A stretch of DNA of 64,000 nucleotides from Actinomycetes bacterium. GTDB taxonomy: Bacteria; Actinomycetota; Acidimicrobiia; Acidimicrobiales; Microtrichaceae. Positions 21,089 to 52,545 of this stretch are shown piece by piece. A program made the position numbers and the translations under genes. Each line of letters begins with the position of its first letter. Positions within the stretch are counted from its first letter, which is position 1. Under the pieces are notes generated by a model. That model had not been told where the DNA came from and did not search any database. It worked only from the letters and a program-made list of their open reading frames with translations. The DNA lies in NCBI GenBank assembly GCA_024222295.1, contig JAAEPF010000055.1:1-64000 (forward strand). Reading direction: 5' to 3'.

Positions 21089-22054
21089 TCAGGCTTTTCC
21101 CGGATCCTCCGGCGGGCCGTTCCCGGCCTCCGCGGGGGCGAAGTGAAGCTGCCACAACTCCTCGACGATCTCCTCCGCTGAGCGGTTGCACCCCTCGCGG
21201 ATCCGCAGCCGCCCCGACAGGGCCAGGAGTGCCGCATCCAGGGTCACCGTCGCGTCATCGGCCGTGGAGCCGCGCAGTGTCGCGAGCTCGGTGCTCAACA
21301 GTGCGTGGTCGATGGCGCCGCGTACCGAGGATCCCGTGCGCACGTCGGGGTGCTCGCGGCTGTCGCGCACCATCGCAACGGTCGCAGCGAGTTGGGCATC
21401 GGCCACGGGCGAGCCGGCGGGCAGGGCCGAGGCGACGATCTCGCGCTCCTCGTCGCCTGACTGGTAGTCCATCGCCAGGCGGCAGCACCTGTCGTACACG
21501 GCAGAGGCGATGCGGGCGGTGCCCACTGCGTCGAACGGGTTCATCGCGGCAACCAGCCGGAACCCCGGCGCCGCGCAGACGCGGCCGAGGCGCGGCACGT
21601 GCAGTTCGCCCTCGCTCATCACCGTGATGAGCACGTTGAGGGTCTCCTCGGGCACCCGGTTGATCTCCTCGACATACAGCAGCGAACCGTCGCGCAGCGC
21701 CGAGATGAGGGGGCCGTCGACGAACACATCGGGCACGTATCCCTCGCTGAGGACCGCCGCCGGGTCGAATGTGCCGACCAGCCGGGCAGGCGTGAGCTCG
21801 GCGTTTCCCTCAACGAATTCGAAGCCGATGCGTGCTTCAGCTGCGATCGCACGCAGCACTGTCGACTTGCCGGTGCCCGGCGGCCCTTCGAGCAGTAGGT
21901 GGCGGCCTGCCGCCAGCGCGGCGACCACGGACTCCAGTTCGCGGCGCCGCCCCACGACTTCTGTCGTGAGGCGGCTCAGCAGTTCCGGCCCGAAGGCCGG
22001 TTCGGTTGGATCTACCGGGTCGGGAGCGGCAGCGTCAGAACTCGAGGACGCCAC
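21089..22054 (-). CDS. MoxR-family AAA+ ATPase
   Basis: A AAA+ chaperone ATPase, about 321 aa. Walker A is LLLEGPPGTGKSTVLRA, Walker B is LLYVEEINRVPEETLNVLI (the usual DE is EE), and sensor-1 lies in FRLVAAMNPFDAVGTARI. MoxR proteins work with VWA partners to activate metalloenzymes or assemble complexes. The start is uncertain: GTG 22054 gives a 20-base overlap with the alcohol dehydrogenase stop, while the longest frame begins at 22099. The VWA gene follows 23 bases downstream. The order ADH-MoxR-VWA on one strand suggests a single transcription unit. Confidence 0.88.
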   Translation of the reverse strand: MASSSSDAAAPDPVDPTEPAFGPELLSRLTTEVVGRRRELESVVAALAAGRHLLLEGPPGTGKSTVLRAIAAEARIGFEFVEGNAELTPARLVGTFDPAAVLSEGYVPDVFVDGPLISALRDGSLLYVEEINRVPEETLNVLITVMSEGELHVPRLGRVCAAPGFRLVAAMNPFDAVGTARIASAVYDRCCRLAMDYQSGDEEREIVASALPAGSPVADAQLAATVAMVRDSREHPDVRTGSSVRGAIDHALLSTELATLRGSTADDATVTLDAALLALSGRLRIREGCNRSAEEIVEELWQLHFAPAEAGNGPPEDPGKA

Positions 22055-23159
22055 GGATGTTCTTGCCGTCTCGCAGGTCCTGGTAGCCCTGGTTGACATC
22101 GTCGAGCTTGTAGCGGTTGGTGATCAGCTCATCGAGCTTGAGCACTCCCTCGCGGTACATCGAGAGCAGCTGGGGGATGTCGGCGCGGGGGTTGCCGGAG
22201 CCGAACACGGTGCCCTTGATGGACTTGTTCATCATGGCGAGCATGAACAGGTTGAGCGACACGTCGCTCTCCATCATCCCGGCAAGTGCGGTGATGACGA
22301 GCGTGCCGCCCTTGGACACGAGGTTCATCGCCGGCTCGACCATCTCGCCCGTGACCACGCCGGGCGTGAGGATGGCGGAGTCGCACATGTCGCCCCAGGT
22401 GAGGTCGGGCACGGCGATGAGGGCCTCGTCGATCGAGGAGTACGTGTGGGTGGCGCCCATCTCCATTGCCTTCTCGCGCTTGAACTCCACCGGGTCGATG
22501 GCGATGACACGCTTGGCACCGGAGATTGCCGCGCCCTGAACCGCGTTGATGCCGACGCCGCCGATTCCGATCACCGCCACGTTGTCGCCGGGCTTCACCT
22601 CGGCTCTGTGCACGGCGGAGCCGACGCCGGTGGCGACGCCGCAGCTCACGAGTGCCACGACCTCGAGGGGCAGGTCGGGCTCCACCTTCACAACGGAGGT
22701 CTCCGACAGCAGCAGGTTCTCCGAGAAAGTGCCGAGCTGCGCGAAGCGGGCGGCCTCGTGCTCGCCGATCTTGTGGGAGCTCGAGCCCTCGGTGCGGGTC
22801 ATCATCTGCAGGTCGAACAGCTTGGCGCCCTCGTCGCAGATGTTCTGCTGGCCGGTCGAGCACCACTTGCAGCGGCCACATGCAGGGATGAACGACATCG
22901 ACACGTGATCGCCGGGAGCGACCGCGGTGACACCCTCGCCGACCTGCTTCACGATGCCGGATCCCTCGTGGCCACCGATGAACGGCCAGAAGGGCACCGG
23001 CATGTCTCCGGTGACGACGTGCTCGTCCGAGTGGCACATGCCGGCATAGGCGGTGTCGATCAGGACCTCGCCCGGGCCCGGATCGTCGATCGTCATGTCC
23101 TCGACCTTCCAGTCCTGCTGGTGGCCCCACAGGACGGCTGCTCGGGTCTTGGTCGGCAT
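22035..23159 (-). CDS. NDMA-dependent (nicotinoprotein) alcohol dehydrogenase, mycofactocin-associated type
   Basis: A zinc-dependent medium-chain alcohol dehydrogenase of 374 aa. Catalytic zinc ligands appear in [13 protein letters not shown] and FIGGHEGSG. The structural zinc loop is [15 protein letters not shown]. The Rossmann motif is [20 protein letters not shown]. The overall sequence is that of the family measured with the artificial acceptor N,N-dimethyl-4-nitrosoaniline. In that family NAD is bound tightly and mycofactocin is thought to recycle it. Genomic co-occurrence with mftA-C 1.5 kb away fits this. A strong RBS (AAGGGGGAA) precedes the ATG. The inverted repeat CCGCAC-ggc-GTGCGG sits upstream. 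Confidence 0.92.
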
Positions 23160-24611: not shown

Positions 24612-24782
24612 ATGAACCTGCACAACACCGCCGCGGTCGACCGCGACCCCACTGCCGCCATTGGTGACGACACCGCGACCGGCAAGGCCGACGAAGAGCG
24701 CACCGTCGAAGACGAGTCCATGGTGACCGAGGAACTCCTGGTCGAAGAGGTCTCGATCGACGGCATGTGCGGGGTCTACTGA
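24612..24782 (+). CDS. mftA: mycofactocin precursor peptide MftA
   Basis: The ribosomal precursor of the redox cofactor mycofactocin, 56 aa. The diagnostic C-terminus is IDGMCGVY: MftC oxidatively decarboxylates the last Tyr and crosslinks it to the preceding Val. The central part is acidic (ADEERTVEDESMVTEELLVEE), as expected for a leader recognised by MftB. The coding sequence is shorter than many gene callers accept. mftB overlaps its last bases, and mftC follows, so the order A-B-C is the standard one. The ATG is preceded at 7 nt by TAGGAT and has no evident RBS, which suggests a leaderless transcript. Confidence 0.95.
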   Translation: MNLHNTAAVDRDPTAAIGDDTATGKADEERTVEDESMVTEELLVEEVSIDGMCGVY

Positions 24783-25066
24783 GCTCCGATTCGACCGCCG
24801 TGGACCTCGACGCCCCGTACCGCCTCGACTCACAGGTGAGCCTGCGGCCCGAGGACTTCGGGGCGCTCGCCTACCACTTCGGCAACCGCAAGCTCAGCTT
24901 CGTGAAGCACCCCGACCTGCTGCGCGTGCTCGAACTGCTCGACAGCGAGTCGACGCTCGCCGAAGCACTCGTAGCAGCCGGGGTCGACGAGAGCCGCTGG
25001 CCGTCGTTCGTTGCCGCACTGGAAACGCTCGAAGCGTCGGAGATGGTACGTGTCCGCACCACCTGA
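24767..25066 (+). CDS. mftB: mycofactocin biosynthesis chaperone MftB
   Basis: A small RiPP-recognition-element protein (PqqD-like winged helix) that binds the MftA leader and presents it to MftC. The sequence APYRLDSQVSLRPEDFGALA then YHFGNRKLSFVKHPDLLRVL is typical of MftB. The listed start, GTG 24767, overlaps the mftA stop by 16 bases. A second GTG at 24800 would begin just before DLDAPYRL and agrees better with family N-termini, so the protein may be 88 rather than 99 aa. The end overlaps mftC, which implies translational coupling through the three genes. Confidence 0.93.
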   Translation: MRGLLSSDSTAVDLDAPYRLDSQVSLRPEDFGALAYHFGNRKLSFVKHPDLLRVLELLDSESTLAEALVAAGVDESRWPSFVAALETLEASEMVRVRTT

Positions 25067-26219
25067 GCTGATTGTGGCGCAGCCGCCCACTGCCACCCGA
25101 CCGCTGGTGGAGCACTTCAAGGAAGGCCTCGCCGCGCCGATCTGCCTCACGTGGGAGCTCACGTGGGCATGCAACCTGGCCTGCGTGCACTGCCTCAGCT
25201 CGTCGGGTCGGCGTGACCCACGCGAGCTCAGCACCGAGGAGTGCTTCGCGGTCATCGACGAGCTGCAGGCACTGAAGGTGTTCTACGTGAACCTCGGTGG
25301 CGGTGAGCCCATGCTGCGCCCCGACTTCCTGGACATCCTCGACTACGCGGTCGCCCACGATGTCGGAGTGAAGTTCTCCACGAACGGCACGTACATCGAT
25401 GGCGAGGCTGCCCGGCGTTTCGCCGAGATGGACTACCTCGACATCCAGGTCTCGATCGACGGGGCAGATGCCGTCGTCAACGATTCGGTTCGGGGCGAGG
25501 GCTCGTTCGCAGCAGCGCTCGACGCGATGGGCCGGCTCGCCGGGGCGGACTTCGGGCCATTCAAGGTGAGCATCGTGGCGACCCGCCACAACATCGACCA
25601 GCTGGACGCCTTCAAGGCGATAGCGGATGACCACGGCGCGCAACTCCGCGTCACCAGATTGCGTCCGTCGGGTCGCGGAGCCGACTCGTGGGACGAGCTG
25701 CATCCCACCCAGGCCCAACAACGCCAGCTCTACCACTGGCTGCTGGACCGACCCGACGTGCTCACCGGAGACTCCTTCTTCCACCTGTCGGCGCTCGGTG
25801 AATCGCTGCCGGGGCTCAACCTCTGCGGCGCCGGGCGGGTGGTGTGCCTGATCGACCCGGTCGGCGACGTGTACGCCTGTCCGTTCGTGATCCACGACGA
25901 GTTCCTCGCCGGCAACGTACGCGACGAGGGCGGATTCACGAAGGTCTGGCGCAGCAGCGACTTGTTCACCACACTTCGCGAGCCCGACAACCCCGGCGCC
26001 TGTGTGAGCTGCGGCAGCTACGACGCCTGCCAGGGAGGCTGCATGGCCTCCAAGTTCTTCGTCGGACTCGACCTCGACGACCCTGACCCCGAGTGCGTGC
26101 ACGGTGCCGCGGACGAGAAGCTGGCCTCGCTCGCGTCGGGCTCCGGCGGTGCACCGCGCAGCGGCCAGGACCATTCGCGTCCGGGCGTTGCGGTGCCCAC
26201 ACCGGTCCGTCGTCGCTGA
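25050..26219 (+). CDS. mftC: mycofactocin radical SAM maturase MftC
   Basis: A radical S-adenosylmethionine/SPASM enzyme, about 389 aa, that decarboxylates and cyclises the MftA C-terminal Val-Tyr. The SAM cluster motif is CNLACVHC, followed by YVNLGGGEPMLRPDFLDI (the GGEP motif). The SPASM auxiliary cluster cysteines lie in CGAGRVVCLIDPVGDVYACP and in CVSCGSYDACQGGCMASKFF, with a final Cys in DPECVHGA. GTG 25050 overlaps mftB by 17 bases and was chosen over an in-frame ATG at 25011 because family proteins begin shortly before the PLVEHFKEGL block. No mftD follows; the next gene is of the DUF1800 type. Confidence 0.95.
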   Translation: MSAPPELIVAQPPTATRPLVEHFKEGLAAPICLTWELTWACNLACVHCLSSSGRRDPRELSTEECFAVIDELQALKVFYVNLGGGEPMLRPDFLDILDYAVAHDVGVKFSTNGTYIDGEAARRFAEMDYLDIQVSIDGADAVVNDSVRGEGSFAAALDAMGRLAGADFGPFKVSIVATRHNIDQLDAFKAIADDHGAQLRVTRLRPSGRGADSWDELHPTQAQQRQLYHWLLDRPDVLTGDSFFHLSALGESLPGLNLCGAGRVVCLIDPVGDVYACPFVIHDEFLAGNVRDEGGFTKVWRSSDLFTTLREPDNPGACVSCGSYDACQGGCMASKFFVGLDLDDPDPECVHGAADEKLASLASGSGGAPRSGQDHSRPGVAVPTPVRRR

Positions 26220-30859: not shown

Positions 30860-31720
30860 TCACATCCGGTCGGTCAGCTCCAGCAACGATGTGTGGAACG
30901 CGTCGGCGTCGAGGTCGTGGCTCCAGCCGTGCCCACAGAACAGACGGTCGAAACGGTGCCCCGACTCTGCAAAGCGGCGCAGCGAATCACGCTGGGCGTC
31001 CCAGGAGAACCAGCAGGCGTTGCGGAACGCGGTGAGGTGTTCGCTGCGCGGGCTCCAGGCCAGCGAGTCACCTGAGAACAGCAGATGGTCGTCCACCAGG
31101 AACAGCACCGAACCCTCGGTGTGTCCCGGCACCGGGAACGCCACGATGTCGTCGCGGACCCGCACTTCGTCGGTGCCGTCGATCATGTGGTTGGCATCCG
31201 GTGCAGCCGATGAGTCCGCCTCGTGGACCCAGACTTGCGCGCCGAAGCGATCGGCATAGCGGGCGTAGTCGGCCACGTCGTCACGGTGTGACAGCAGGAT
31301 GTGGTCGATCCCACCCATCTCCTCGACCGGGCCGACCACCTCGCGGGTCCAGCGCGGTGAGTCGACCATCACGTTGCCTGCGTCGCGCGCGACCAGGTAG
31401 CTGTGCGCCCCGAACGAGGAACGGGCGTTGTGGCCCAGCCGGTACACGCCATCGCCGAGGTCCTGGGGAAAGGCCTTCGGATATGGGCGCTTCAGCGTCT
31501 CGTTGCCGACCGAACGGGTGGGGCACACGAGAAGTGCACGCCAAGCAGCATCGAGGTCCTCGGGCGTCTCCGGCTGACGAAGGAAGACGGACTTGCCGTC
31601 GTCGTCGGTTCCCACGAGGCCCGGGGCCACATGGCGTGCCGCATCGCAGTTGATGCAGTTCGTGTCGACGTACCAGTCGCCCGGGGCCGAGAGCTCATTG
31701 CGGTCCATTGGCCGTGCCAT
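30860..31720 (-). CDS. ferredoxin-like domain fused to a metallo-beta-lactamase fold
   Basis: A 286-aa two-part protein. Residues 15-80 look like a degenerate ferredoxin (WYVDTNCINCDAARHVAP, later ALLVCPTRSVG) with too few Cys for a full 4Fe-4S set. From about residue 90 an MBL hydrolase fold follows: HILLSHRDDVADYARYADRF stands where HxHxDH is expected, then FPVPGHTEGSVLFLVDD, LLFSGDSLAW and RLFCGHGWSHD. The altered HRDDVAD first motif is seen in a known subfamily of such fusions (from memory), so metal binding may differ. The function is unknown. It starts at an ATG 53 bases downstream of the VOC gene on the same strand. Confidence 0.8.
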   Translation of the reverse strand: MARPMDRNELSAPGDWYVDTNCINCDAARHVAPGLVGTDDDGKSVFLRQPETPEDLDAAWRALLVCPTRSVGNETLKRPYPKAFPQDLGDGVYRLGHNARSSFGAHSYLVARDAGNVMVDSPRWTREVVGPVEEMGGIDHILLSHRDDVADYARYADRFGAQVWVHEADSSAAPDANHMIDGTDEVRVRDDIVAFPVPGHTEGSVLFLVDDHLLFSGDSLAWSPRSEHLTAFRNACWFSWDAQRDSLRRFAESGHRFDRLFCGHGWSHDLDADAFHTSLLELTDRM

Positions 31721-37262: not shown

Positions 37263-39224
37263 GTGCCCGCTGTGCAGCCATCGTTGCTCGAAGAATTGAG
37301 GATCGGTCCGCGCACCGCGCCCAACCGGGTTGTGTTCGGCCCCCACGAGACCAATCTGGGCCGCGGCCGCAAGCTGTCTGAGCGGCACACGGCCTACTAC
37401 GAGCGCCGAGCGGCAGGTGGTGCCGGGGTGATCGTCACCGAGGAAGCATCGGTGCACGACTCGGACTGGCCCTACGAACGGGCGCCGCTCGCCACGGAAT
37501 GCGGCGACGGCTGGGCGGAGGTCGTCGAGGCTTGCGGGGCACATGGATCGCTGGTGCTGGCAGCGATCGGCCATGCCGGCGGACAGGGCACTTCGCACTG
37601 GTCCCAGAGCGAGCTGTGGGCACCTTGCCGCGTACCGGAGGTCAACACCCGCGAGGTGCCGAAGTGGATGGAGGCCCCGGACATCGAGGCCGTGATCGCC
37701 GGCTTCGCCGAGGCCGCCCGCACCGCTGTGGAGGCCGGGTGCGACGGCGTCGAGGTCAACGCCGGCCAGTTCTCGTTGGCCCGCCAGTTCCTGTCGGGTC
37801 TGACCAACACCCGCGACGATGAATGGGGCGCCGACCGCACGTTGTTCCTGGACCGGGTGCTGGCAGACGTCCGCGCAGCCGTCGGCAGCGAAGCCATCGT
37901 TGCGCTGCGTCTCTCTTGTGACGAGCTTGCGCCCTGGGCCGGAATCACTCCCGAGGACGCACCCGCCCTCGCGGTGGACCTGCTCGGCGATCCGGCTCGC
38001 CCGGCGTTCGACATGCTCACCGTGGTGAGGGGCTCGATCTTCTCCACCGGGGCGACGCGTCCCGACGGTCACACCCCCGAGGGGTTCAACCTGGAGCTCG
38101 CGAACTCGGTGGCAGCCGCGCTGGCCGAGGTCTGCGACGTGCCGGTGGCGGCCCAGGGGTCGATCGTGGATCCGGCCATGGCCACCAGCGCCGTGGCCGC
38201 AGGGCCTGTCGCCGCCGTCGAGATGACCCGGGCACAGATCGCGGACCCGCTCCTCGTGTCGAAGCTCGCCGATGAGGAGCCACAGCAGGTCAGACCATGT
38301 GTGCTGTGCAACCAGATGTGTGCGGTGAGGGACAACCGCAACCCGATCGTGAGCTGCACGGTCGAACCGGCCAGCGGGCACGAGACCGAAGACGTGCCGG
38401 TGCGCGGTACGGCCCTGGCCCCCGTAGACGTGCTGGTTGTGGGGGGTGGCCCGGCGGGCATGGAAGCTGCACGCGTTGCCGCCCTGCGCGGCCACAGGGT
38501 CCGCTTGGCGGAGCGCAGCGACGAACTGGGCGGCAACCTTGCCGTCACGGCTGCACAGCCCGGCCGCAGCCGCTTCGCCGTGCTTGCAGGATGGCTGCAG
38601 TCGGAGTGCAGTCGCCTCGGGGTCGACATCCGTACCCGCCACGATGTGTCCTCTGCGGAAGCGGGCGAGGTTCCCCACGTGATCCTCGCGGTCGGCAGTC
38701 GTGACGGCGACCTCGCGGCGGATCCGTCCCGAGGCGCCCACGTCGTGTCGGCAGCCTCCGCGCTGGCAGCCCCGCGTGGCTTGCCCGAAGGGGCAGTGCT
38801 CGTCTGGGACCCGATAGGCGGCCCGACCGGAGTCGCCGTGGCGGAGCTGCTGGCAGCCATAGGGCGCGATGTGCACCTGGCCACGCCCGACTACACGGTG
38901 GGCAATGAGCTGGCCCGTTCAGGTGACCTGGGCCCGGCCAATGCCCGGCTGGCCCAGGCCGGCGTGCAGATGCACCGCCGTCGCACGCTGGGCGAGCTCG
39001 GGGATGGAACGGCGGTGCTTCGCGACCGCTTCGGTGGCGACGACCTGGTCCTCGAAGTCGGGGTGGTGGTTGATGCCGGAGCGCGGCTTCCGCAGACCGA
39101 TCTCGAAGTGGACCTGAGCGGCCACCTCGGCCATGACATGGCGGCAGCGGGTGACTGTGTGGCACCTCGAACGGTGCACGAAGCTGTGCTCGAAGGTCGG
39201 CGCCGGGCCCTCGAGCTGGGATGA
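37263..39224 (+). CDS. mycofactocin-system FadH/OYE-type oxidoreductase (first copy)
   Basis: A 653-aa flavo-iron-sulfur reductase of the 2,4-dienoyl-CoA reductase/old yellow enzyme type. Residues 1-330 form an OYE barrel (RTAPNRVVFGPHETNLGRGR, GHAGGQGTSHWSQSELWAPC). The iron-sulfur cluster cysteines are in CVLCNQMCAVRDNRNPIVSC. The C-terminal half is an FAD/NAD(P) domain (VDVLVVGGGPAGMEAARVAA). Two closely related families of this architecture occur almost only in mycofactocin genomes; this gene and the one at 42886 appear to be that pair. The function in the pathway is unproven. The start is GTG. The stop lies in a 13-bp palindrome ahead of korA. Confidence 0.88.
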   Translation: MPAVQPSLLEELRIGPRTAPNRVVFGPHETNLGRGRKLSERHTAYYERRAAGGAGVIVTEEASVHDSDWPYERAPLATECGDGWAEVVEACGAHGSLVLAAIGHAGGQGTSHWSQSELWAPCRVPEVNTREVPKWMEAPDIEAVIAGFAEAARTAVEAGCDGVEVNAGQFSLARQFLSGLTNTRDDEWGADRTLFLDRVLADVRAAVGSEAIVALRLSCDELAPWAGITPEDAPALAVDLLGDPARPAFDMLTVVRGSIFSTGATRPDGHTPEGFNLELANSVAAALAEVCDVPVAAQGSIVDPAMATSAVAAGPVAAVEMTRAQIADPLLVSKLADEEPQQVRPCVLCNQMCAVRDNRNPIVSCTVEPASGHETEDVPVRGTALAPVDVLVVGGGPAGMEAARVAALRGHRVRLAERSDELGGNLAVTAAQPGRSRFAVLAGWLQSECSRLGVDIRTRHDVSSAEAGEVPHVILAVGSRDGDLAADPSRGAHVVSAASALAAPRGLPEGAVLVWDPIGGPTGVAVAELLAAIGRDVHLATPDYTVGNELARSGDLGPANARLAQAGVQMHRRRTLGELGDGTAVLRDRFGGDDLVLEVGVVVDAGARLPQTDLEVDLSGHLGHDMAAAGDCVAPRTVHEAVLEGRRRALELG

Positions 39225-42885: not shown

Positions 42886-44835
42886 ATGGCGGAGCGGATC
42901 CTCTGGACACCCCAACAGATCGGGCCTGTCACGGTGCGCAACCGCATCGTGTTCTCAGCGCACCTCACCAACTACGCGCGTGACGGCCTTCCCACCGAAC
43001 AGCACGCCGCGTACTACGCCGAGCGGGCAGCCGGTGGTGCCGGTCTGATCATCACCGAGGAACACTCGACCCATCCGACCGACTGGCCCTACGAGAAGCT
43101 GATCCACGGCTTCAACCGCGACGTGATCCCCGGCTACCGCCGCATCACCGAGGCCGTTCACCGCCACCGCACTCCGATCTTTGCCCAGATCAACCACAAC
43201 GGCGGCCAGGCATCCTCGATGTACTCCCGCCTGCCCGTATGGGCGCCGTCACCGGTGCCCGACCCGCTGTTCAGGGAAGTGCCGAAGGCTGTCACGCACG
43301 GTGAGATCGCCGAGATCGTCGCCTCGTATGCGCGCGTGGCCGAGCATTGTGCCGAAGGCGGTTTCGACGGGATCGAGCTCCAGTGCTCCCACTCGTCGAT
43401 CGTGCGCGGGTTCCTGTCGCCGGCAACCAACAAGCGCACCGACGACTACGGAGGGTCGCTGGCCAACAGGGCGCGGATCCTCATGGAGATCGTGGCCGCG
43501 GTGCGGAGTTCCATAGGCGCCGATCTCGCGCTCGGAGTGCGCCTGTGCGGCGACGAGTTGATCGAGGGCGGGACCACCAGCGACGAGGCGGTCGAGGTGG
43601 CGGAGATGATGGATGCCGCAGGCCAGGTCGATTACATCAACACCTCGATCGGCGTCGCGACTGCGTCGTTGTTCATGATCGAGGCGTCGATGCACATCCC
43701 GCCCGGATACGCCACGTTCATTCCGTCAGCGATCCGCAAGGCGGTCGACCTGCCTGTGGTGGGAGTCGGCCGCTACAAGGATCCGATCCAGGCCGAGCGC
43801 TCCCTCGCCGAGGGCCACTGCGACCTCGTCGGTGTCGTGCGTGGCCAGATCGCCGATGCCGACTTCGTGGCCAAGGCCCGTGCCGGGTCCGCCGACGACA
43901 CACGGTTGTGCTTGAGCTGCAACCAGGAATGCGTGGGCCGCATGGGGCTCAACCGATGGTTGGGCTGCATCGAGAACCCGCGTACCGGGCGCGAGTCGCT
44001 CGGCGTCGGTCTGGCGCAGCCGGTGTCCCTGGCGCGTGAGGTGCTCGTGGTGGGTGCAGGCCCCGCCGGGCTCCAGGCCGCGATTGCGGCCGCCCGCAAC
44101 GGGCACCGGGTCACCGTGTGCGAGGCGGCCGATGAGGCCGGCGGCCAGGTGCGTCTGGCGGCGTCGGTGCCCAACCGCGCCGAGTTCGGTGACCTGGTGC
44201 GAAACCAGCTGCACGAATGTGGGCGTCTGGGCGTGGAGATCGAGTACGGCACGACCGTCGACGCCGGGGAGGTGGCGCGCCGCATGCCCGACCATGTGGT
44301 GGTGGCGACTGGCTCCGCACCGGCCCGCCCATGGTGGGCACCGGCGGACGCGGAGTGGATCGTGGATGTGCGTGACGTGCTCACGGGCGCGGCCCAGCCG
44401 AGCGGCTCGGTGCTGGTGCTCGACGAGTTGGGCTTCCATCACGCCACGTCGGTGGCCGAGCTGCTCGCCGACGGCGGGTGCGAAGTCGAGATCGTGACGC
44501 CGGGCATGGTCGTTGGCCAGGACCTGGGCATCACTCTCGACCTGGAGAACTTCTGGATCCGCGCACAGGCGAAGGGAATCCGCCAGAACACCGAACTGGT
44601 GCCCATGTCCGTCGATGGGCATGTTGTCGGTTTCCAGCACCACCCCACGGGCCAGATGCAGGAGCGGGAGCCGGACTGGATGGTGCTCGCGGTTCCGTCC
44701 GACCCCGTCGAGTCGCTCTACTTCGAGCTGCGCGAAGCAGGCCTGAGCGTGGAGCGCATCGGTGACGCCATCGCGCCCCGGCGGGCCCACGCCGCTGTGG
44801 TCGACGGCGAACGGGTCGGGGCGGCCCTCACCTGA
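42886..44835 (+). CDS. mycofactocin-system FadH/OYE-type oxidoreductase (second copy)
   Basis: A 649-aa paralogue of the gene at 37263 with the same three-part design. OYE barrel: VRNRIVFSAHLTNYARDGLP, then FAQINHNGGQASSMYSRLPV, and SHSSIVRGFLSPATNKRTDD typical of FadH. The iron-sulfur loop is CLSCNQECVGRMGLNRWLGC. The FAD domain is EVLVVGAGPAGLQAAIAAAR. Unlike the first copy it keeps NKRTDDYGGSLANRARI, close to classical dienoyl-CoA reductases. The pair may use different substrates or act in sequence. Its end is only 3 bases from the convergent cation exporter gene. ATG 42886 is preceded by TACCGT at 7 nt. Confidence 0.9.
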   Translation: MAERILWTPQQIGPVTVRNRIVFSAHLTNYARDGLPTEQHAAYYAERAAGGAGLIITEEHSTHPTDWPYEKLIHGFNRDVIPGYRRITEAVHRHRTPIFAQINHNGGQASSMYSRLPVWAPSPVPDPLFREVPKAVTHGEIAEIVASYARVAEHCAEGGFDGIELQCSHSSIVRGFLSPATNKRTDDYGGSLANRARILMEIVAAVRSSIGADLALGVRLCGDELIEGGTTSDEAVEVAEMMDAAGQVDYINTSIGVATASLFMIEASMHIPPGYATFIPSAIRKAVDLPVVGVGRYKDPIQAERSLAEGHCDLVGVVRGQIADADFVAKARAGSADDTRLCLSCNQECVGRMGLNRWLGCIENPRTGRESLGVGLAQPVSLAREVLVVGAGPAGLQAAIAAARNGHRVTVCEAADEAGGQVRLAASVPNRAEFGDLVRNQLHECGRLGVEIEYGTTVDAGEVARRMPDHVVVATGSAPARPWWAPADAEWIVDVRDVLTGAAQPSGSVLVLDELGFHHATSVAELLADGGCEVEIVTPGMVVGQDLGITLDLENFWIRAQAKGIRQNTELVPMSVDGHVVGFQHHPTGQMQEREPDWMVLAVPSDPVESLYFELREAGLSVERIGDAIAPRRAHAAVVDGERVGAALT

Positions 44836-45781: not shown

Positions 45782-46489
45782 TCAGCCCTCGACGGCGGCG
45801 GCCGCCGAGAGTAGGTCGGCGACGAGGCCCTCGAAGAGCACCTTGCCGTGCTCGGCGGTTGCAGCGGTGGGGTCACCAAGCACGCCGTTGGGTGCGACAG
45901 CCGCCAGTCCGTCGGTGCGCAGCACATCGCCGATCTCGGAGAATCGTGTGCCCGGGCCGGGTTCCGCGAGTTCCATCCGCACCCGATCCGGAGCGAGGTG
46001 GAGCATCATCGACGTCTCGGTCCGTCCAGCGTGGGGGTCGCCGTCGGGCACGCGGGGATGCCATGCCGCGACGCGTCGGCCTTCGCCGCGAAGCGTGGAC
46101 ACGGCCGCCTCGAGCGCCTCGAGGTTGCCTCCGTGTCCGTTGACGAACAGCACGCCGCCAAAGCCAGCCCACGCCCCGGCGTCGGCTGGTTCGGGCAGGG
46201 CGCTGCGGGCAATCTCCACTGCCACATCACGCATGGCCTCTGTCCCGATCGACAGCGTGGCCGGGAAGCCCCGATGCTCGCCGGAGGCACCGATGCTGAC
46301 CGGTGGGGCAACCACGACGTCGTCGCGCGACTGCGCCAACGCTTGGGCGAACGCGCATGCGATGACGGTGTCGGTGTCGACGGGAAGGTGACGCCCATGC
46401 TGCTCGCAACTGCCTGTGGGCACAGCCAGGATCGGCGAGCGCTCTGCGAGATCCGGCCAGCGCAGGTCACCCAGGCGGTACGAGACCAT
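45782..46489 (-). CDS. mftE: mycofactocin creatininase-family peptidase MftE
   Basis: A metal-dependent peptidase of the creatininase family that releases the Val-Tyr-derived dipeptide core from MftC-modified MftA. The sequence is 235 aa. Metal and active-site regions are ILAVPTGSCEQHGRHLPVDT (Glu-x-His and Asp), VVAPPVSIGASGEHRGFPAT, and GVLFVNGHGGNLEALEAAVS. The block GRTETSMMLHLAPD completes the site. It is the last gene of a leftward operon in which its start overlaps the stop of the ETF-beta gene by one base. In mycobacteria mftE is next to mftD; here it is next to electron-transfer genes, 20 kb from mftA-C. Confidence 0.93.
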   Translation of the reverse strand: MVSYRLGDLRWPDLAERSPILAVPTGSCEQHGRHLPVDTDTVIACAFAQALAQSRDDVVVAPPVSIGASGEHRGFPATLSIGTEAMRDVAVEIARSALPEPADAGAWAGFGGVLFVNGHGGNLEALEAAVSTLRGEGRRVAAWHPRVPDGDPHAGRTETSMMLHLAPDRVRMELAEPGPGTRFSEIGDVLRTDGLAAVAPNGVLGDPTAATAEHGKVLFEGLVADLLSAAAAVEG

Positions 46490-47355
46490 CAGTCATCACC
46501 GCCGAGGTACCCCCATGACCGCAGTTGCTCGACGATCATGCGCGCCGCCTCGGCCGGCTCGGCCTCCACGGAGCGGGGTGGTTCTGTATCCAAGCCGGCG
46601 CCGGTGAGCTGCGTGATCCGATCGAGCGCGCTGTTGCCTGCGGGCGGTGGCAGCACGCGAGCCCGCGGTCGCCATGGCCGCATGCGGGGTGGCTCCACAT
46701 GGGCCTCGATGCGGCCCCGCTCAACGTGGAGCGTAGGGCCCTTCGCGGCTGACCCCAGGGACGCCGACAAGGGGGCGCGGCGCAGGGTGGCTACCGCCCC
46801 CTCCACCGAATAGACCGCAGGGCCGTTGATGGCGAGGCGTTCGCGCCGCGCGCCATCGAGCCGTCGCACGGCGGTGGCCCCTGCGGATTCCGGAGTCACG
46901 GAGATCAGGCCGAGAGCCTGCGCGAACTGGAGGTGGTGCGCCAACAGCCCCGGCACCGACCCGGATCCGCGGTCGTAGCTCAGGTCGCCGCATACGACCG
47001 CTCGTGCATCCAGCTCACCGGGTCCCAGAACCGATGCCAGCACGTCGGCCACGGTCTCGGAGTGCAGCCCCGAGGACTGGTCGATCCGCACGACCCGCAT
47101 GGCTCCGGACGCGGCGAGTTCCAGCAGTCCACGGTCTGCATCCGGGGGGCCTGCGCACACGATCACGGCTTCGCACTCCCAGGCCTCGGCCATCTGCAGG
47201 GCCACCTCGAGGGCGGTGCGGTCGGCAGGGGAGAAACCCCCGCCGCGCTCGGACGGAGTGACCGTGCCATGCACGGGATCGATCACGGGTCGGAGGTCGA
47301 CCCACTTCACGCAGGCCACCACGGGACCCGTCGGTGCCGACGCGTTGGCGCTCAT
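46489..47355 (-). CDS. electron transfer flavoprotein beta subunit, mycofactocin-associated
   Basis: An ETF beta/FixA-type subunit, 288 aa. It starts PVVACVKWVDLRPVIDPVHG, matching the ETF-beta N-terminus (xxVxVKxVxD). The nucleotide-binding regions are FSPADRTALEVALQMAEAWE (usual NPFDxxAVEEALRLKE), then RVVRIDQSSGLHSETVADVL. The C-terminal 50 residues are basic and extended compared with normal ETF-beta. It overlaps the upstream ferredoxin gene by four bases and the downstream mftE by one. The likely role is to receive electrons with its partner EtfA and hand them to the FixC-like flavoprotein. Coupling to mycofactocin is inferred from position. Confidence 0.88.
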   Translation of the reverse strand: MSANASAPTGPVVACVKWVDLRPVIDPVHGTVTPSERGGGFSPADRTALEVALQMAEAWECEAVIVCAGPPDADRGLLELAASGAMRVVRIDQSSGLHSETVADVLASVLGPGELDARAVVCGDLSYDRGSGSVPGLLAHHLQFAQALGLISVTPESAGATAVRRLDGARRERLAINGPAVYSVEGAVATLRRAPLSASLGSAAKGPTLHVERGRIEAHVEPPRMRPWRPRARVLPPPAGNSALDRITQLTGAGLDTEPPRSVEAEPAEAARMIVEQLRSWGYLGGDD

Positions 47356-47660
47356 GAGTTGTGGAACACCACCCCGTGGCCACCCTCCGGGTAGGTCCAG
47401 GTGATGGCGCCCTCCTCGTTGCACACGAGGTAGCAGGTGCCGCACTCGAAGCACTGCTCGTAGTTGAATACGATGCCGCCGTCGGAGGTGGGCACGAACA
47501 GGTCGGCCGGGCAGGCCGTGATGCACCCACGGACCGTGCAGTCGCGGCAATGCGTGTCGTCGAGGGTGATGTGGGCATCGGAGTGGACTCTGAACTCCGC
47601 AGAGTTCATCCGGGCCTCGAAGCTGATCTCCGGGTATGGGTTGGGTGTATGCGCTGCCAT
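47352..47660 (-). CDS. FixX-like 4Fe-4S ferredoxin
   Basis: A small iron-sulfur protein of about 102 aa. Cysteines are in THCRDCTVRGCITACPADLF and YEQCFECGTCYLVCN, the FixX/EtfQO C-terminal ferredoxin arrangement with two cysteine groups. FixX proteins form with FixC the separate-subunit version of ETF:quinone oxidoreductase. An ATG at 47660 begins MAAHTPNPYPEISFEARMNS; an in-frame start at 47699 would overlap the FixC gene. It follows the FixC-like gene by 11 bases and overlaps the ETF-beta gene. The protein would pass electrons from the flavoprotein toward quinone. Confidence 0.9.
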   Translation of the reverse strand: MAAHTPNPYPEISFEARMNSAEFRVHSDAHITLDDTHCRDCTVRGCITACPADLFVPTSDGGIVFNYEQCFECGTCYLVCNEEGAITWTYPEGGHGVVFHNS

Positions 47661-47671
47661 CTGTCGACCTG

Positions 47672-48970
47672 TCATCCAAACGTGCGCAGGGCGCGCCATC
47701 CGTCTCGTGCGGCGTCGCGGATCCGCAGTCCATTGCGGCGCATCTCAGAGCGCACGATCTTGCGCAGCCTGGGCTTCGGGTTCGGGTTGTCCACCTGGAA
47801 GACCTGTTCGACAACCCCACAGGCCACCGCCGGAAGGTACTTCTGTGCGAGATCGCCCATCACGAGGTGTGGTGCCTCGCGCAACCGCCTGTGGTCCTGC
47901 ATCACGAAGCTCGACTCGAGTCGTGACCGGTATCCGGAGAGCCCCGTGGCCGATGCATCACCTTGATCGACAGCCTTGGCGGCCGCACGGCCGGCCGCAG
48001 CACCTGAACCTATGGCGAAGTTCACGCCTTCCAGCCAGATCCCCGCAGCAAGGCACATCGCTGCGGCATCACCGGTCACGAGGATCCCGTTGCCGACGAT
48101 TTCCGGCATCATGTCGTAGCCCGCCTCCGGGATCACATGGGCGGAGTACTCCTTGACCTCGCCACCCTCCACGAGGGGTGCCACCGCGGGATGCGCCTTG
48201 AGGTCGGCCAGGATCTTCTCGGGCCGCACGTCCCCCTTTGCCAAGGACGGGAGCGACAGCACCAGCCCGACCGCGATGGTGTCCCGGTTGGTGTAGACGA
48301 ATCCGCCACCGGGCACATCGCCGGTGCATCCGATGATCTCGATGTCCACCCCGTGGTCGCCCCGCACACCGAAGCGCTCGTCGATGACCTCGCGGGGCAG
48401 GGCGATCGTCTCCTTCACGCCCAGCGTGTAGTTGGCCGCGTCGACCTCGCCGTAGAGGCCGGCCTCCTTGGCCAGGAACGAGTTGACTCCATCGGCCGCG
48501 ATCACCACTGGCGCCGTGAGCTCGCCGTCGGGGCGGTCGGTGCGTACGCCGACCACTTGCCCACCTTCGCTCAGCAGGCCGGTCACCGTGGTGGAGCAGA
48601 CCAGTTCGGCCCCGGCGTCGACCGCCTTGTCGGCGAGCCAGGAATCGAAGTCTGGCCTGTAGGCCGTGGCGCCGTTGTAGGGCTCCTCACCCCATGCCTC
48701 GGTGCGGTAGTCGACCGTGAGCGCCTGGGTACCGGTCATGATCATCGTCTGGCGTCGCGTCACCCAACGCTGGATCGGGGCCTCGCGGTACCACTCGGGC
48801 ACCAGGTCATCGAGCACCCGGCCGTAGATGACCCCGCCGTACATGTTCTTGGAACCGGGGAACGGTCCGCGCTCCACCAGCACCACACGCTTGCCCGCGC
48901 GCGCGGCAGTGAGCGCAGCAGCAGAGCCTGCGGGCCCGGCGCCGACCACGATCACGTCGGCGGTCGTCAT
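47672..48970 (-). CDS. FixC-like FAD-dependent ETF:quinone oxidoreductase
   Basis: A membrane-associated flavoprotein of 432 aa. The FAD-binding N-terminus is DVIVVGAGPAGSAAALTAAR, and GSKNMYGGVIYGRVLDDLVP is the FixC signature (xGSKNMxGG). VVIAADGVNSFLAKEAGL and GNGILVTGDAAAMCL are further FAD motifs. FixC with FixX is the bacterial split form of ETF-ubiquinone oxidoreductase. It would accept electrons from the ETF encoded on both sides and reduce quinone. The ATG overlaps the stop of the ETF-alpha gene (ATGA), so all four proteins are probably made in fixed ratio. Confidence 0.92.
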   Translation of the reverse strand: MTTADVIVVGAGPAGSAAALTAARAGKRVVLVERGPFPGSKNMYGGVIYGRVLDDLVPEWYREAPIQRWVTRRQTMIMTGTQALTVDYRTEAWGEEPYNGATAYRPDFDSWLADKAVDAGAELVCSTTVTGLLSEGGQVVGVRTDRPDGELTAPVVIAADGVNSFLAKEAGLYGEVDAANYTLGVKETIALPREVIDERFGVRGDHGVDIEIIGCTGDVPGGGFVYTNRDTIAVGLVLSLPSLAKGDVRPEKILADLKAHPAVAPLVEGGEVKEYSAHVIPEAGYDMMPEIVGNGILVTGDAAAMCLAAGIWLEGVNFAIGSGAAAGRAAAKAVDQGDASATGLSGYRSRLESSFVMQDHRRLREAPHLVMGDLAQKYLPAVACGVVEQVFQVDNPNPKPRLRKIVRSEMRRNGLRIRDAARDGWRALRTFG

Positions 48971-49893
48971 GGGGTCACCTCGGCGGCCGCATCGTCGAGA
49001 GCTGCCAGCTCTGCTTCGAGGGCATCGAGGGTGGCGTTGGCGTCGGCCACGATCGCCAGGTCTGCGAGGCCCATCATCGGACAGTTCGCCTCGGTGTTGA
49101 CCGAGATCACATGATCCGGGCTTCCGAGGCCGCTGGTGTGCTGCACGGCGCCGGAGATCCCGAACGCCATGTAGAGGCGGGGATCCACGACCACGCCCGT
49201 GGTGCCGATCTGGCGCTCGTGGGGCAGCCAGCCCTTGTCGGTGATCACCCGGGTGGTGCCGACAGAGGCATCCAGTGCGGTGGCGATGCCCGTGAGTTGC
49301 ACGAACCGCTCGCTCGCTTCGAGGCCGTTGCCGCCACCGAGGATCCGGGGGGCCTCTGCGAGGTCCATCGTGGTCACGTCCGGCGGCAGCACCTCGACGA
49401 TCTCCGCCTCGGCCGTCTCGGGTGCCTGCAGGTCGAGTTCGGTGACGGACATCTCCAGCATCGGGTCGGGCTCGACGCCGCGTACGCCCGGCTGGAGCGT
49501 GACCACAGCGGCGCCGCGAAGCGAGTGCTCGGCCATCGACGACCCGGCGAAGCCGACCGTGGTCACACGGTCCTCGCGGACTTCGATGGCGCCGGCGATG
49601 GGCACGTGCTCGAGCAGCGCCGCGAGCCGGGGAGCAAGATCGCGGCCGTCGGGGCTGGCGGGTAGCAGCAGGATCCGTTCCTCCGCGAGCAAGGGAGCCA
49701 ACACGGCAGCCCATGCACCCGGCGCGAAGCCCGGGGTGTCCCAGACCCGAACGTCGGTTGCGAGTCCGCGCAGCTCCTGGCTTGCCGTCATTGCCGACTC
49801 TCCCACGAGCACGGCTGCTCCGCCCGCCTCGGCGACGGCTTCGGCGCCTCCCGCGGGCAGCTCACCCGCACGCACCGGGACCACTGCGATCAT
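48967..49893 (-). CDS. electron transfer flavoprotein alpha subunit, mycofactocin-associated
   Basis: An ETF-alpha/FixB subunit of 308 aa. The C-terminal FAD domain is unmistakable: RILGGGNGLEASERFVQLTG, KGWLPHERQIGTTGVVVDPR, and YMAFGISGAVQHTSGLGSPD with VISVNTEANCPMM. In classical ETF the first motif is SGGRG; here it is GGGNG. The N-terminal domain is short and variable. It is the first gene of the leftward operon ending in mftE; TAGCTT lies 6 bases before its ATG. Divergent from the mycofactocin SDR. I infer that it serves oxidation of mycofactocin-linked enzymes rather than acyl-CoA dehydrogenases, but that is not shown. Confidence 0.9.
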   Translation of the reverse strand: MIAVVPVRAGELPAGGAEAVAEAGGAAVLVGESAMTASQELRGLATDVRVWDTPGFAPGAWAAVLAPLLAEERILLLPASPDGRDLAPRLAALLEHVPIAGAIEVREDRVTTVGFAGSSMAEHSLRGAAVVTLQPGVRGVEPDPMLEMSVTELDLQAPETAEAEIVEVLPPDVTTMDLAEAPRILGGGNGLEASERFVQLTGIATALDASVGTTRVITDKGWLPHERQIGTTGVVVDPRLYMAFGISGAVQHTSGLGSPDHVISVNTEANCPMMGLADLAIVADANATLDALEAELAALDDAAAEVTP

Positions 49894-49968: not shown

Positions 49969-50745
49969 ATGACAGAAGCCAATGTGCTGGTCACCGGTGC
50001 GGCCCGCGGCATAGGCGCCGAGGTCTGCCGACAGTTCGCCCGGCAGGGTGCCCGCGTGGTTGCGCTCGACCGCTGTGAGGACGACAAGCGTATCGACTAC
50101 CCCCTCGCCACAGCAGAACAGCTTGACGCCGTGGTGGCGGATTGTGGCGGCGGTGCAACGGCGGTGGTGGCAGACGTAGCTGACCGCGGCGCCCTGATGG
50201 CAGCAGTGGAGGGCCTGCCCACCTTCGACGCGGTGGTTTGCGCCGCGGGGGTGCTGTGGGGTGGAGGCCCGCTTTGGGAAACGCCCGAAGAGGCATGGGA
50301 GGCCCAGGTGGGTGTCAACACCACCGGAGTGCTCAACACCGCCGCAGCAACGGTGCCGGCGATGCTCGACGCAGCCGAGCCGCGGTCCGGTCGTTTCGTG
50401 GCCGTGGCCTCCGCTGCAGCTTCGAGGGGTTTGCCTTCACTCGGCAGCTACTCGGCAACCAAGCATGCGGTCGTCGGTCTGGTGCGGTCCCTCGCAGCCG
50501 ACCTCGGCGACTCGGGCATCACCGCCAACGCGGTGGCGCCGGGTGCCACCCGCACCGACATCCTCGAGGCCTCAGCCGCCGTCTACGGGCTCGACACGCC
50601 CGAGCAGTTCAGTGAGCACCATCTGCTGGGCCGACTGCTCGAGCCGGCCGAGGTGGCATCCGCGATCGTCTGGCTCTGCAGTCCGGCCGCTGCTGCGATC
50701 ACGGGTGCCGTGCTTCCGGTGGACGCCGGAATGACTGCGTCGTGA
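49969..50745 (+). CDS. mycofactocin-coupled SDR-family oxidoreductase
   Basis: A short-chain dehydrogenase of 258 aa. The nucleotide-binding motif is VLVTGAARGIGAEVCRQFAR and the catalytic Tyr-Lys is in LGSYSATKHAVVGLVRSLAA with Ser in VAVASAAASRGLPS. GVLWGGGPLWETPEEAWEAQ lies at the substrate lid. This subfamily is found next to mycofactocin genes and is thought to hold NAD tightly and pass hydride to mycofactocin. ATG 49969 was chosen (MTEANVLVTGA). Its stop overlaps the mftF GTG (GTGA), so it is co-translated with the glycosyltransferase. Its substrate alcohol is unknown. Confidence 0.88.
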   Translation: MTEANVLVTGAARGIGAEVCRQFARQGARVVALDRCEDDKRIDYPLATAEQLDAVVADCGGGATAVVADVADRGALMAAVEGLPTFDAVVCAAGVLWGGGPLWETPEEAWEAQVGVNTTGVLNTAAATVPAMLDAAEPRSGRFVAVASAAASRGLPSLGSYSATKHAVVGLVRSLAADLGDSGITANAVAPGATRTDILEASAAVYGLDTPEQFSEHHLLGRLLEPAEVASAIVWLCSPAAAAITGAVLPVDAGMTAS

Positions 50746-52145
50746 GTCAGCGGCCCCCGTCCGCGTTGCGGGGCTGGCCGGTGTGCGCTGACGAATCGCT
50801 GCGCCGCCTGGCGCCACAGGTGTGGTTGGGCGGCTCGCCGTTACGCCTGTTCAGGTTGACGGAGCCAGGCGACGAGTTGCTCCGCGAGCTGGAAGCGGCG
50901 GGACCTGGTGGTCTGGCGGTCAACGGCTCCGCCGCAACCCGGCTGATCGACCGGCTGGTGACGACCGGAGCCGCCAATCCGCTCCCTGTGCAGGGCGACA
51001 CCACTCCTGACCCGGCTGAGGTGACTCTGGTGGTCCCGGTCCGCGACCGGGCCCGGTCGCTCGACCGACTCCTCGAGCGATGGCGTTCCGCTTCGCCGGG
51101 CCCGCCGCGCGCCGCGGTGGTCGTGGACGACGGATCGGTCGAGTCCGGTGAGGTCGCCGCTGTGGCAGGCCGCCACGCCGCCACACTCCTGGTGAACGAA
51201 ACGCCCCGGGGGCCCGCCGCTGCGCGCAATGCAGGGCTGCGCCAAGTGCGAACACCGCTGGTGGCGTTCGTCGACTCGGATGTCCGGGCCGACGGCGACT
51301 GGCTCGCGCCGCTACTCGCTCAGATGGCCGACCCCCGGGTGGCGCTCGTGGCACCACGGGTCCGTTCCCGGCCGGGTCCGGGCGCGCTGGCACGCTACGA
51401 GTTCGAACACTCTCCACTCGACCTGGGGGCTGAACCATCCGTGGTGCGTCCGAGGGCCAGGGTCGCCTACCTGCCCGCTGCCACTCTCGTCGGGCGGGTG
51501 TCGGTGCTGCGCGACCTGGGGGGATTCGACGAGTCGATGCGCTTCGGTGAGGACGTCGACCTGGTGTGGCGGGTTGTGGACGCCGGCCATGGCGCACGCT
51601 ACGAGCCGGCCTCCCAGGTGTTCCACGCCCCGCGGGCGGACTGGCTCGGCTGGGCTCGGCAACGGTTCGCCTACGGGTCATCGGCTGCACCGCTGCACAC
51701 GCGCCATCCGGGTTCGGTGGCGCCGGTGTCCTGTTCGGGGTGGAGCGCCGCGATGTGGGCGCTGGCGGGAGCCGGCCATCCGGTCGCTGCGCTGGCTGTC
51801 GGCGCTGGGTCTGGCGCCGCACTGGCTCGCAAGCTCGAGGGAGTGGCTCCGACTGACTCAGCGATGCTCGCGGTGAAAGGGCATGCGGGCGCGGCTCGAG
51901 GGCTGTCGCGTGCTGTGGTGCGTCCCTGGTGGCCGGTGGCTCTCGCAGCTTCGGCTGTCTCGCGACGAGCCCGCCGTTTCGTGCTTGCCTCGGTTGCCAC
52001 GACCGTGGCCTCTGCAGAGGGCACGGTCGCCGACAGGTTCACCAGCCTGGCCGACGACGCCGTCTATGGCGCAGGGGTCTGGTGGGGCGCCGCTCGAGAA
52101 CGGTCCTTCGGGGCGCTGTTGCCGGCCCTGCCCCGGTGGCCCTGA
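50742..52145 (+). CDS. mftF: mycofactocin glycosyltransferase MftF
   Basis: A family-2 glycosyltransferase of 467 aa that adds glucose units to the mycofactocin core. The N-terminal segment PQVWLGGSPLRLFRLTEPGD is specific to MftF. The GT2 domain has TLVVPVRDRARSLDRLLERW, AAVVVDDGSVESGEVAAVAG, and the DxD-like VAFVDSDVRADGDWLAPLL, then FDESMRFGEDVDLVWRVVDA. Two or three hydrophobic helices near the C-terminus suggest membrane association. The GTG start overlaps the SDR stop. No downstream partner on this strand follows; the gene converges with a ferredoxin-P450 pair across 204 bases. Confidence 0.93.
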   Translation: MSQRPPSALRGWPVCADESLRRLAPQVWLGGSPLRLFRLTEPGDELLRELEAAGPGGLAVNGSAATRLIDRLVTTGAANPLPVQGDTTPDPAEVTLVVPVRDRARSLDRLLERWRSASPGPPRAAVVVDDGSVESGEVAAVAGRHAATLLVNETPRGPAAARNAGLRQVRTPLVAFVDSDVRADGDWLAPLLAQMADPRVALVAPRVRSRPGPGALARYEFEHSPLDLGAEPSVVRPRARVAYLPAATLVGRVSVLRDLGGFDESMRFGEDVDLVWRVVDAGHGARYEPASQVFHAPRADWLGWARQRFAYGSSAAPLHTRHPGSVAPVSCSGWSAAMWALAGAGHPVAALAVGAGSGAALARKLEGVAPTDSAMLAVKGHAGAARGLSRAVVRPWWPVALAASAVSRRARRFVLASVATTVASAEGTVADRFTSLADDAVYGAGVWWGAARERSFGALLPALPRWP

Positions 52146-52349: not shown

Positions 52350-52544
52350 TCACTCCTCGATCGTGATTGCGTACTCGGGGCAGTTGTCGGCCGCGAGCCG
52401 GGCCTTCTCCTCCAGCTCGGCGGGCACGTCACCTTCGATGCGGAGCACTGCGTATCCCTCGTCATCCACGTCGAACACCTCTGGTGCCAGCAGGTAGCAG
52501 CGATTGTGGCCCTGGCAGGCGTCGCGGTCGTACTTGATCCTCAT
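52350..52544 (-). CDS. single-cluster (3Fe-4S type) ferredoxin for P450
   Basis: A 64-aa ferredoxin. Cysteines are in DACQGHNRCYLLAPEVF and AADNCPEYAITIEE, the three-cysteine pattern of actinobacterial P450 ferredoxins where the middle ligand (here His in CQGHNRC) is not Cys. It would carry one electron at a time from a reductase to the adjacent cytochrome P450. The ATG is 1 base after the P450 stop codon region on the same strand (stop TCA at 52546). No ferredoxin reductase gene is next to it. Confidence 0.92.
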   Translation of the reverse strand: MRIKYDRDACQGHNRCYLLAPEVFDVDDEGYAVLRIEGDVPAELEEKARLAADNCPEYAITIEE

Positions 52545-52545
52545 C

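Follow-up and report, generated by a model that had tools for sequence, protein, structure and literature searches.

We analyzed a 64,000-nucleotide stretch of DNA (hereafter the window) from an actinomycete of the family Microtrichaceae (GCA_024222295.1, contig JAAEPF010000055.1, positions 1 to 64,000). It carries genes for mycofactocin (mft), a peptide-derived redox cofactor, together with genes for both subunits of an electron transfer flavoprotein (ETF), a FixC-like flavoprotein and a FixX-like ferredoxin. The reading that we favor, at somewhat better than even probability, is that ETF, FixC and FixX belong to a six-gene module, OYE1-OYE2-etfA-fixC-fixX-etfB (OYE, old yellow enzyme), which replaces mftD, with OYE1 and OYE2 performing the MftD step and the electrons passing via ETF to quinone. 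Mycofactocin organisms without MftD, which include many bacteria and some archaea, probably finish, and perhaps recycle, the cofactor by electron transfer to the quinone pool.

The ETF genes lie on the minus strand of the window in the order etfA (48967..49893), fixC (47672..48970), fixX (47352..47660) and etfB (46489..47355), followed by mftE for the mycofactocin peptidase (45782..46489). The first-pass annotation of this DNA had described these genes as overlapping head to tail and facing a short-chain dehydrogenase/reductase (SDR)-mftF pair, and the coordinates bear this out: etfA/fixC and fixX/etfB share ATGA overlaps (the etfB ATG is at 47355), etfB and mftE overlap by one base (TGATG), 11 bases separate the fixC stop from the fixX ATG at 47660, and the block diverges from the plus-strand genes for a mycofactocin-coupled SDR dehydrogenase (about 49969..50745; TIGR04504, 328 bits, cut-off 250) and the glycosyltransferase MftF (50742..52145; TIGR03965, 384 bits, cut-off 280). 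That annotation had omitted mftA, mftB, mftC and both OYE genes, all of which are in the window on the plus strand: the MftA precursor gene (24714..24779; TIGR03969, 48.5 bits; its translation ends in IDGMCGVY), mftB (24767..25066; TIGR03967, 97 bits), the gene for the radical SAM maturase MftC (25011..26219, start uncertain; TIGR03962, 593 bits), and the genes for mycofactocin-system FadH/OYE oxidoreductases 1 (OYE1, 37263..39224; mycofact_OYE_1, TIGR03996, 736 bits, cut-off 628) and 2 (OYE2, 42886..44835; mycofact_OYE_2, TIGR03997, 972 bits, cut-off 793). OYE1 and OYE2 are here encoded on the strand opposite to the ETF block, and a cation-efflux gene separates OYE2 from mftE. EtfA (mft_etfA, NF038209, 353.5 bits, cut-off 240; also PF00766) and EtfB (mft_etfB, TIGR04503, 235.8 bits, cut-off 200) likewise exceed the cut-offs of their NCBIfam models, as does MftE (TIGR03964, 262.1 bits, cut-off 172); the names of the four ETF and OYE models convey a mycofactocin context and not a function. 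FixC matches PRK10015 (330 bits) and PRK10157, and FixX matches PRK15449 (48.5 bits), all below the cut-offs. MftD (TIGR03966) is absent from the genome of the window, the best match reaching 229 bits against a cut-off of 471, and one further EtfA-like match in this genome falls under the mft_etfA cut-off.

The distribution of the genes, called by NCBIfam profile scores over curated cut-offs, ties the ETF to mycofactocin and sets it against MftD. Of 198 genomes in a class sample, 13 contained mft_etfA, and all 13 were among the 38 with mftC (hypergeometric 7e-11); mft_etfB occurred in 8 of 396 genomes of a phylum sample, again all within the 53 that have mftC, although seven of these eight are shared with the class sample. 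The dedicated ETF-FixC-FixX route proposed in the first-pass annotation is upheld by these counts, which depend on the curated cut-offs because some EtfA-like match is found in 195 of the 198 class genomes. To these 38 class genomes we then added the 28 genomes with mftC that the phylum sample holds from outside the class. In this joint set of 66, mft_etfA was present in 14 genomes (13 of the class and 1 of the 28) and MftD in 49; MftD was found in none of the 14 mft_etfA genomes vs 49 of the other 52 (Fisher 9e-12). OYE2 was likewise over its cut-off in 14 genomes, comprising 13 of the 14 mft_etfA genomes and G368, and in none of the 49 with MftD; in the fourteenth mft_etfA genome (G173) OYE2 is cut by the contig end and scores 787 bits against 793. 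Three of the 66 had neither mft_etfA nor MftD over the cut-off. One of them (G197) is fragmented (88% complete, about 940 contigs), and the other two (G134 and G368) carry diverged OYE, EtfA, FixC and FixX genes at their mft loci, beside mftC. These two loci (L202 in G134 and L104 in G368) are strongly diverged as a whole, with MftC on very long branches.

The exclusion extended to an order sample of 288 genomes, where MftD was scored on at most six first-look candidates per genome: mft_etfA occurred in 35, MftD in 70 and both in one (G605), compared with 8.5 expected (Fisher 6e-4). Of the 35, 25 were new to the analysis and were included without a genome-wide mftC search, and 24 of these 25 lacked MftD. 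Since ten families hold both MftD-type and ETF-type members, the switch between the types probably represents more than one event. A quick MftC tree of 76 rows contained 10 changes between types, at least 3 or 4 of which are forced by well-supported branches.

The commonest gene order in the fetched loci was mftB-mftC-OYE1-OYE2-etfA-fixC-fixX-etfB-mftE-(SDR)-mftF. In this order the module takes up the position after mftC that mftD occupies in several MftD-type loci (L204, L205, L209, L211-L213, L258, L264 and L265). Among the 39 mft_etfA genomes (14 of the joint set and the 25 new ones), 32 had an ETF gene on the same fetched stretch as mftB, mftC, mftE or mftF; the remaining seven comprise three with short contigs (G173, G600 and G627) together with G733, G778, G605 and G709. 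In 33 of the 39, OYE2 and etfA were on one and the same stretch, and in four OYE2 lay elsewhere in the genome, with G699 and G712 outside the test. The earlier description of the electron route as fused to the mycofactocin operon accordingly holds for most loci and fails for G605 and G709, where the module stands apart. Because all six genes stand together in these two genomes, we regard OYE1/OYE2 and the ETF set as one unit; the ETF-FixC-FixX block that had been singled out is real, and its constant partners OYE1 and OYE2 belong with it. The stand-alone OYE1-OYE2-etfA-fixC-fixX-etfB loci (L179 and L180, from two genomes of one family) adjoin pentose-phosphate genes and a TIGR00730-like gene, the neighbors of the G605 and G709 modules being zwf, opcA, pgl and tal. 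A divergent mftC beside these modules was considered and rejected, as the adjacent gene is TIGR00730-like, itself under the cut-off of that family. Within the modules of L190 and L192, fixC points the opposite way to etfA, fixX and etfB.

Plasmids gave the same picture. MftC matches were found on 13 plasmid records, of which 12 were kept; a Rhizobium record, whose match (29% identity) carries no annotation beyond radical SAM protein, was set aside. MftD was present in four of the 12 clusters (Mycolicibacterium, Tsukamurella, Streptomyces NBC_00080 and Thermomicrobium) and OYE plus ETF at the mft locus in the other eight (six Streptomyces, Haloterrigena and Halolamina); none of the 12 plasmid mft loci had MftD and ETF together, the chromosomes of the plasmid hosts being outside the MftD search. 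The S. yangpuensis and S. lavendulae clusters are 99.99% identical over 12 kb and therefore count as one. Within Streptomyces, the NBC_00080 plasmid carries mftR, mftG and mftA-B-C-D-E-F, in contrast to mftA-B-C-OYE1-OYE2-etfA-fixC-fixX-etfB-F-E in S. yangpuensis. In Streptomyces sp. SAT1 (L259, 17218-19169), OYE2 is split into two parts that are read in different frames, and no gene is listed there. The haloarchaeal plasmids (L256 and L257) carry mftA, mftB2, mftC, mftE, a gene for an MftF-type glycosyltransferase and the OYE-ETF-FixC-FixX block, together with another gene of OYE type and several genes for mycofactocin-coupled SDRs; their ETFs are annotated generically. Two Sphingopyxis plasmids (NZ_CP013345.1 and NZ_CP009430.1, 139523-140356) also contain part of an MftD-like reading (52% identity) that is not listed as a gene, and neither plasmid gave a match to MftC.

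The mycofactocin-associated EtfA proteins form a clade separate from ordinary EtfA. In a tree of 71 rows (47 mycofactocin-associated, including those of Streptomyces plasmids and haloarchaea, and 24 ordinary), all of the former lie on one side of a branch with a Shimodaira-Hasegawa-like approximate likelihood ratio (SH-aLRT) support of 95. For EtfA, the phylogenetic check called for by the first-pass annotation thus came out in its favor, in a tree obtained by a quick search. That annotation had also pointed to an unusual form of the flavin-site motif SGGRG in the α subunit, and the loss of its Arg is real and general: Arg was retained in none of 44 mycofactocin-associated EtfA (A in 31, N in 6, Q in 5, M in 1 and G in 1; the window EtfA has Asn) vs 24 of 24 ordinary EtfA (23 by pattern, the 24th being AAGRG). 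The place is taken by Tyr or Phe in the haloarchaeal proteins and by Gly or Ala in three Streptomyces ones. In Methylophilus ETF this Arg (α-Arg237) reportedly prevents full reduction and makes the anionic semiquinone more stable by about 200 mV; the Arg-less ETF is therefore predicted to reach the hydroquinone easily.

The window EtfB is 39-59% identical to 30 other mycofactocin-associated EtfB, and its AlphaFold model (mean predicted local distance difference test score, pLDDT, 83.7) has ETF β subunits as nearest folds, which is fold-level information only. The best Protein Data Bank (PDB) match of the window FixC was the FixC subunit of Thermotoga maritima EtfABCX (7koe_C, 248 bits) vs 65 bits for the single-chain ETF-ubiquinone oxidoreductase (2gmh), to which it is not closely homologous; FixX matched the corresponding 7koe_D at 58 bits. 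The eight Cys residues of FixX are kept in 37 of 37 proteins and, judged from sequence, would be enough for two 4Fe-4S clusters.

OYE1 and OYE2 each combine a flavin mononucleotide (FMN) barrel (PF00724) with an Fe-S motif of four Cys and, in pyridine-redox domains, another nucleotide-binding region, an architecture shared with amine dehydrogenases of the trimethylamine and histamine type. The window OYE2 is 67-84% identical to 23 other OYE2, with the Fe-S and active-site motifs conserved; its AlphaFold model (pLDDT 75.6, several stretches under 50, including the Fe-S motif) informs on the fold only. Full-length relatives of OYE1 and OYE2 in the PDB are dienoyl-CoA reductase, naphthoyl-CoA reductase, two histamine dehydrogenases, an amine oxidase and trimethylamine dehydrogenase (TMADH). 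TMADH is an Fe-S flavoenzyme that feeds ETF, its electrons going from the 4Fe-4S cluster to ETF according to the accessible portion of PMC8097209.

MftD oxidatively deaminates 3-amino-5-[(p-hydroxyphenyl)methyl]-4,4-dimethyl-2-pyrrolidinone (AHDP) to premycofactocin, and in a ΔmftD strain of M. smegmatis AHDP accumulates and mycofactocins are abolished, as described in sections of PMC7491314. The MftA end IDG[M/I]CGVY is preserved in clusters without MftD and is near-identical in the MftD and ETF types, and Saccharopolyspora erythraea, whose genus has clusters that lack MftD, is said to make methylated mycofactocin (PMC11162802, in part); something must therefore carry out the MftD step in such clusters. 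On the evidence of gene content, OYE1/OYE2 with ETF and FixC/FixX are the recurrent candidate for this step; no other was noticed in the loci, although no systematic search was made. In the mechanism that we propose, OYE1 and/or OYE2, as FMN/4Fe-4S members of the dienoyl-CoA reductase and histamine/trimethylamine dehydrogenase family, would oxidatively deaminate AHDP to premycofactocin, perhaps also re-oxidize mycofactocinol, and pass the electrons to ETF, from which FixC/FixX would carry them on to quinone. OYE1 and OYE2 are the likely direct donors of ETF, and the MftD step the likely reaction. MftD itself uses oxygen. A more ambitious version, which we put forward tentatively and hold to be doubtful in its entirety, is that the module stands in for MftD and MftG alike, is linked to quinone and may work without oxygen: one OYE would finish the cofactor, the other would re-oxidize it, both would share a specialized ETF that the loss of Arg allows to cycle to the full hydroquinone, and the whole would have spread between Actinobacteria and haloarchaea.

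Several observations weigh against the replacement of MftD by the module, in addition to the restricted scope, given above, of the MftD searches in the order sample and in the plasmid hosts. The main ones are the stand-alone modules, which argue against a strict replacement because G605 has a standard mftB-C-D-E-F locus as well as the six-gene module on another contig; in G709, the module was apart from any mft genes in the about 60 kb fetched. G722 has MftD and a truncated etfA that scores 208 bits, under the cut-off. Many MftD genomes have mftD away from mftC (in L206, L207 and L210, for example, none is near mftC), so that an mftD "slot" after mftC is not universal. Well-supported branches of the MftC tree yield four independent pairs, of which about three agree (sign test, median p 0.25), and with only four pairs this test is unable to reach significance. 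OYE2 is also closer to dienoyl-CoA reductase (265 bits) than to histamine dehydrogenase (193) or TMADH (169). The Cys that links FMN in TMADH is Glu in OYE1 and, by analogy, Leu in OYE2, and the active-site residues that act on the amine differ as well, with the Tyr absent; amine chemistry is for these reasons not readable from the residues.

Of the alternatives, the one that survives best, as a less probable though serious explanation, is that ETF and FixC/FixX only re-oxidize mycofactocinol or mycofactocin-dependent dehydrogenases to quinone, which is the job of MftG, and that the MftD step is done by an OYE without ETF or by another enzyme. Premycofactocin (-255 mV) is able to reduce menaquinone (-74 mV), and about 25% of mftC genomes are without MftG, complementation by other enzymes being called an open question (both from the accessible part of PMC11778925). 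The coexistence of MftD with the module in G605 would also fit. The first-pass annotation had expected mftG to be absent where the ETF occurs, and MftG (TIGR03970) was indeed over its cut-off in none of the 14 mft_etfA genomes, nor was mft_etfA found in the 12 of the 66 genomes with MftG (Fisher p = 0.056); the genome of the window has no TIGR03970 match, its sister families TIGR04542 and NF038210 not having been searched. However, MftG was present in 0 of the 38 class genomes and 12 of the 28 others, so that this exclusion is confounded with lineage, and we rejected it as main evidence. The absence of MftG says little, since none of the mftC genomes of the class has it, 23 with MftD among them, so that the lack of MftG does not call for an ETF. 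The strong link is instead with the loss of MftD and the presence of OYE1/OYE2. In addition, G123, one of the mft_etfA genomes, encodes an MftG-like GMC protein of full length that scores 329 bits, under the cut-off of 387.

It is unlikely that the OYE enzymes modify the cofactor, for example by reducing the AHDP core, to give a different mycofactocin, with ETF and FixC/FixX supplying or removing electrons. In its favor, two of the OYE relatives (1ps9 and 6qkg) are enoyl- or aryl-CoA reductases, but the two types of cluster differ little or not at all in the MftA end, the report on S. erythraea cited above concerns methylated mycofactocin, and the usual direction of electrons in ETF with FixC/FixX is towards quinone. 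We give slightly less credence still to a mycofactocin-linked catabolic route, such as amine or enoate oxidation, with MftD replaced by an unrelated, unseen enzyme: the six genes stay together and can stand apart from the mft genes, but in most loci and in the Streptomyces plasmids the module is among them, and the loci offered no recurrent candidate for such an enzyme in the unsystematic survey described above.

An electron-bifurcating FixABCX complex reducing ferredoxin and quinone, to which the nearest relatives of FixC and FixX in T. maritima EtfABCX might point, is very improbable and was rejected on the EtfB residues, because the Gly said to be invariant at the β-flavin adenine dinucleotide (β-FAD) place of bifurcating EtfB (PMC12630350, in part) is Arg in 30 of 36 mycofactocin-associated EtfB and Gly in none (Ala and Ser once each). 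The place was mapped via an alignment with 4kpu_B, and the comparison was made against PDB alignments, with no ordinary EtfB from the fetched loci. By eye, Gly does stand there in an EtfB from a Streptomyces plasmid that is not among the 36.

The proposed replacement of MftD can be set beside known systems. Compared with the mycobacterial mycofactocin system (mftABCDEF and mftG), the window shares mftA, mftB, mftC, mftE, mftF and the IDGMCGVY end, lacks mftD and mftG, and has OYE1, OYE2, ETF, FixC and FixX. FixABCX/EtfABCX of T. maritima (7koe) has the same four components, but in the mycofactocin module EtfB lacks the bifurcation Gly and EtfA the flavin-site Arg. TMADH and histamine dehydrogenase are homologous to OYE1/OYE2, which differ in lacking the FMN-linking Cys and in their active-site residues. 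The mycofactocin-like clusters of Saccharopolyspora resemble the window in missing mftD and carrying TIGR03997: this holds for the 17 clusters examined in PMC11162802 (2024), where, in the available text, the function of the OYE is called unknown; the word "electron" is absent from its main text.

According to the accessible part of Haft 2011, most mycofactocin species, though not every one, have MftD, MftE and a TetR regulator; none of the terms ETF, FixC and FadH appears in that part. In a search that left most subscription papers outside, "mycofactocin" and "electron transfer flavoprotein" never came together in one paper, and "mycofactocin" and "old yellow enzyme" did so in one, on coumarin degradation. 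A literature search returned no statement that these NCBIfam proteins replace MftD or feed FixC/FixX. The parts were thus already named by NCBIfam, both ETF subunits as "mycofactocin-associated", and the absence of mftD had been noted for one genus; the present contribution is the six-gene unit, its exclusion of MftD in both bacteria and archaea, and the proposed electron route.

Other genes of the window include one for an NDMA-dependent (N,N-dimethyl-4-nitrosoaniline-dependent; nicotinoprotein) alcohol dehydrogenase on the minus strand (22035..23159; TIGR03989, 537 bits, cut-off 440), which is a likely mycofactocin user. A KorA/KorB 2-oxoacid:acceptor oxidoreductase pair lies between OYE1 and OYE2 (39301-42227; KorA by TIGR03710, 644 bits, and KorB by homology); homologues adjoin OYE2 in L002-L006, L094 and L097, and the Streptomyces NBC_00564 cluster (L254) has a similar pair in its vicinity. 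In the interval from mftC to the OYE genes, 30860-31720 encodes a protein that begins with a ferredoxin domain (PF13370) and whose remainder by eye is metallo-β-lactamase-like, and just beyond mftF, at 52350-53700, a ferredoxin domain (PF13459) is found beside a cytochrome P450.

What, if anything, replaces MftG in a quarter of mycofactocin genomes was left open in 2025 in the available text of PMC11778925. One module that explains the loss of MftD in both bacteria and archaea would make this question and that of the absence of MftD directly testable, and it would aid genome-mining rules that require mftD. If our reading is true, a peptide-derived redox cofactor can be made and operated by a second biochemical route, one tied to the quinone pool.

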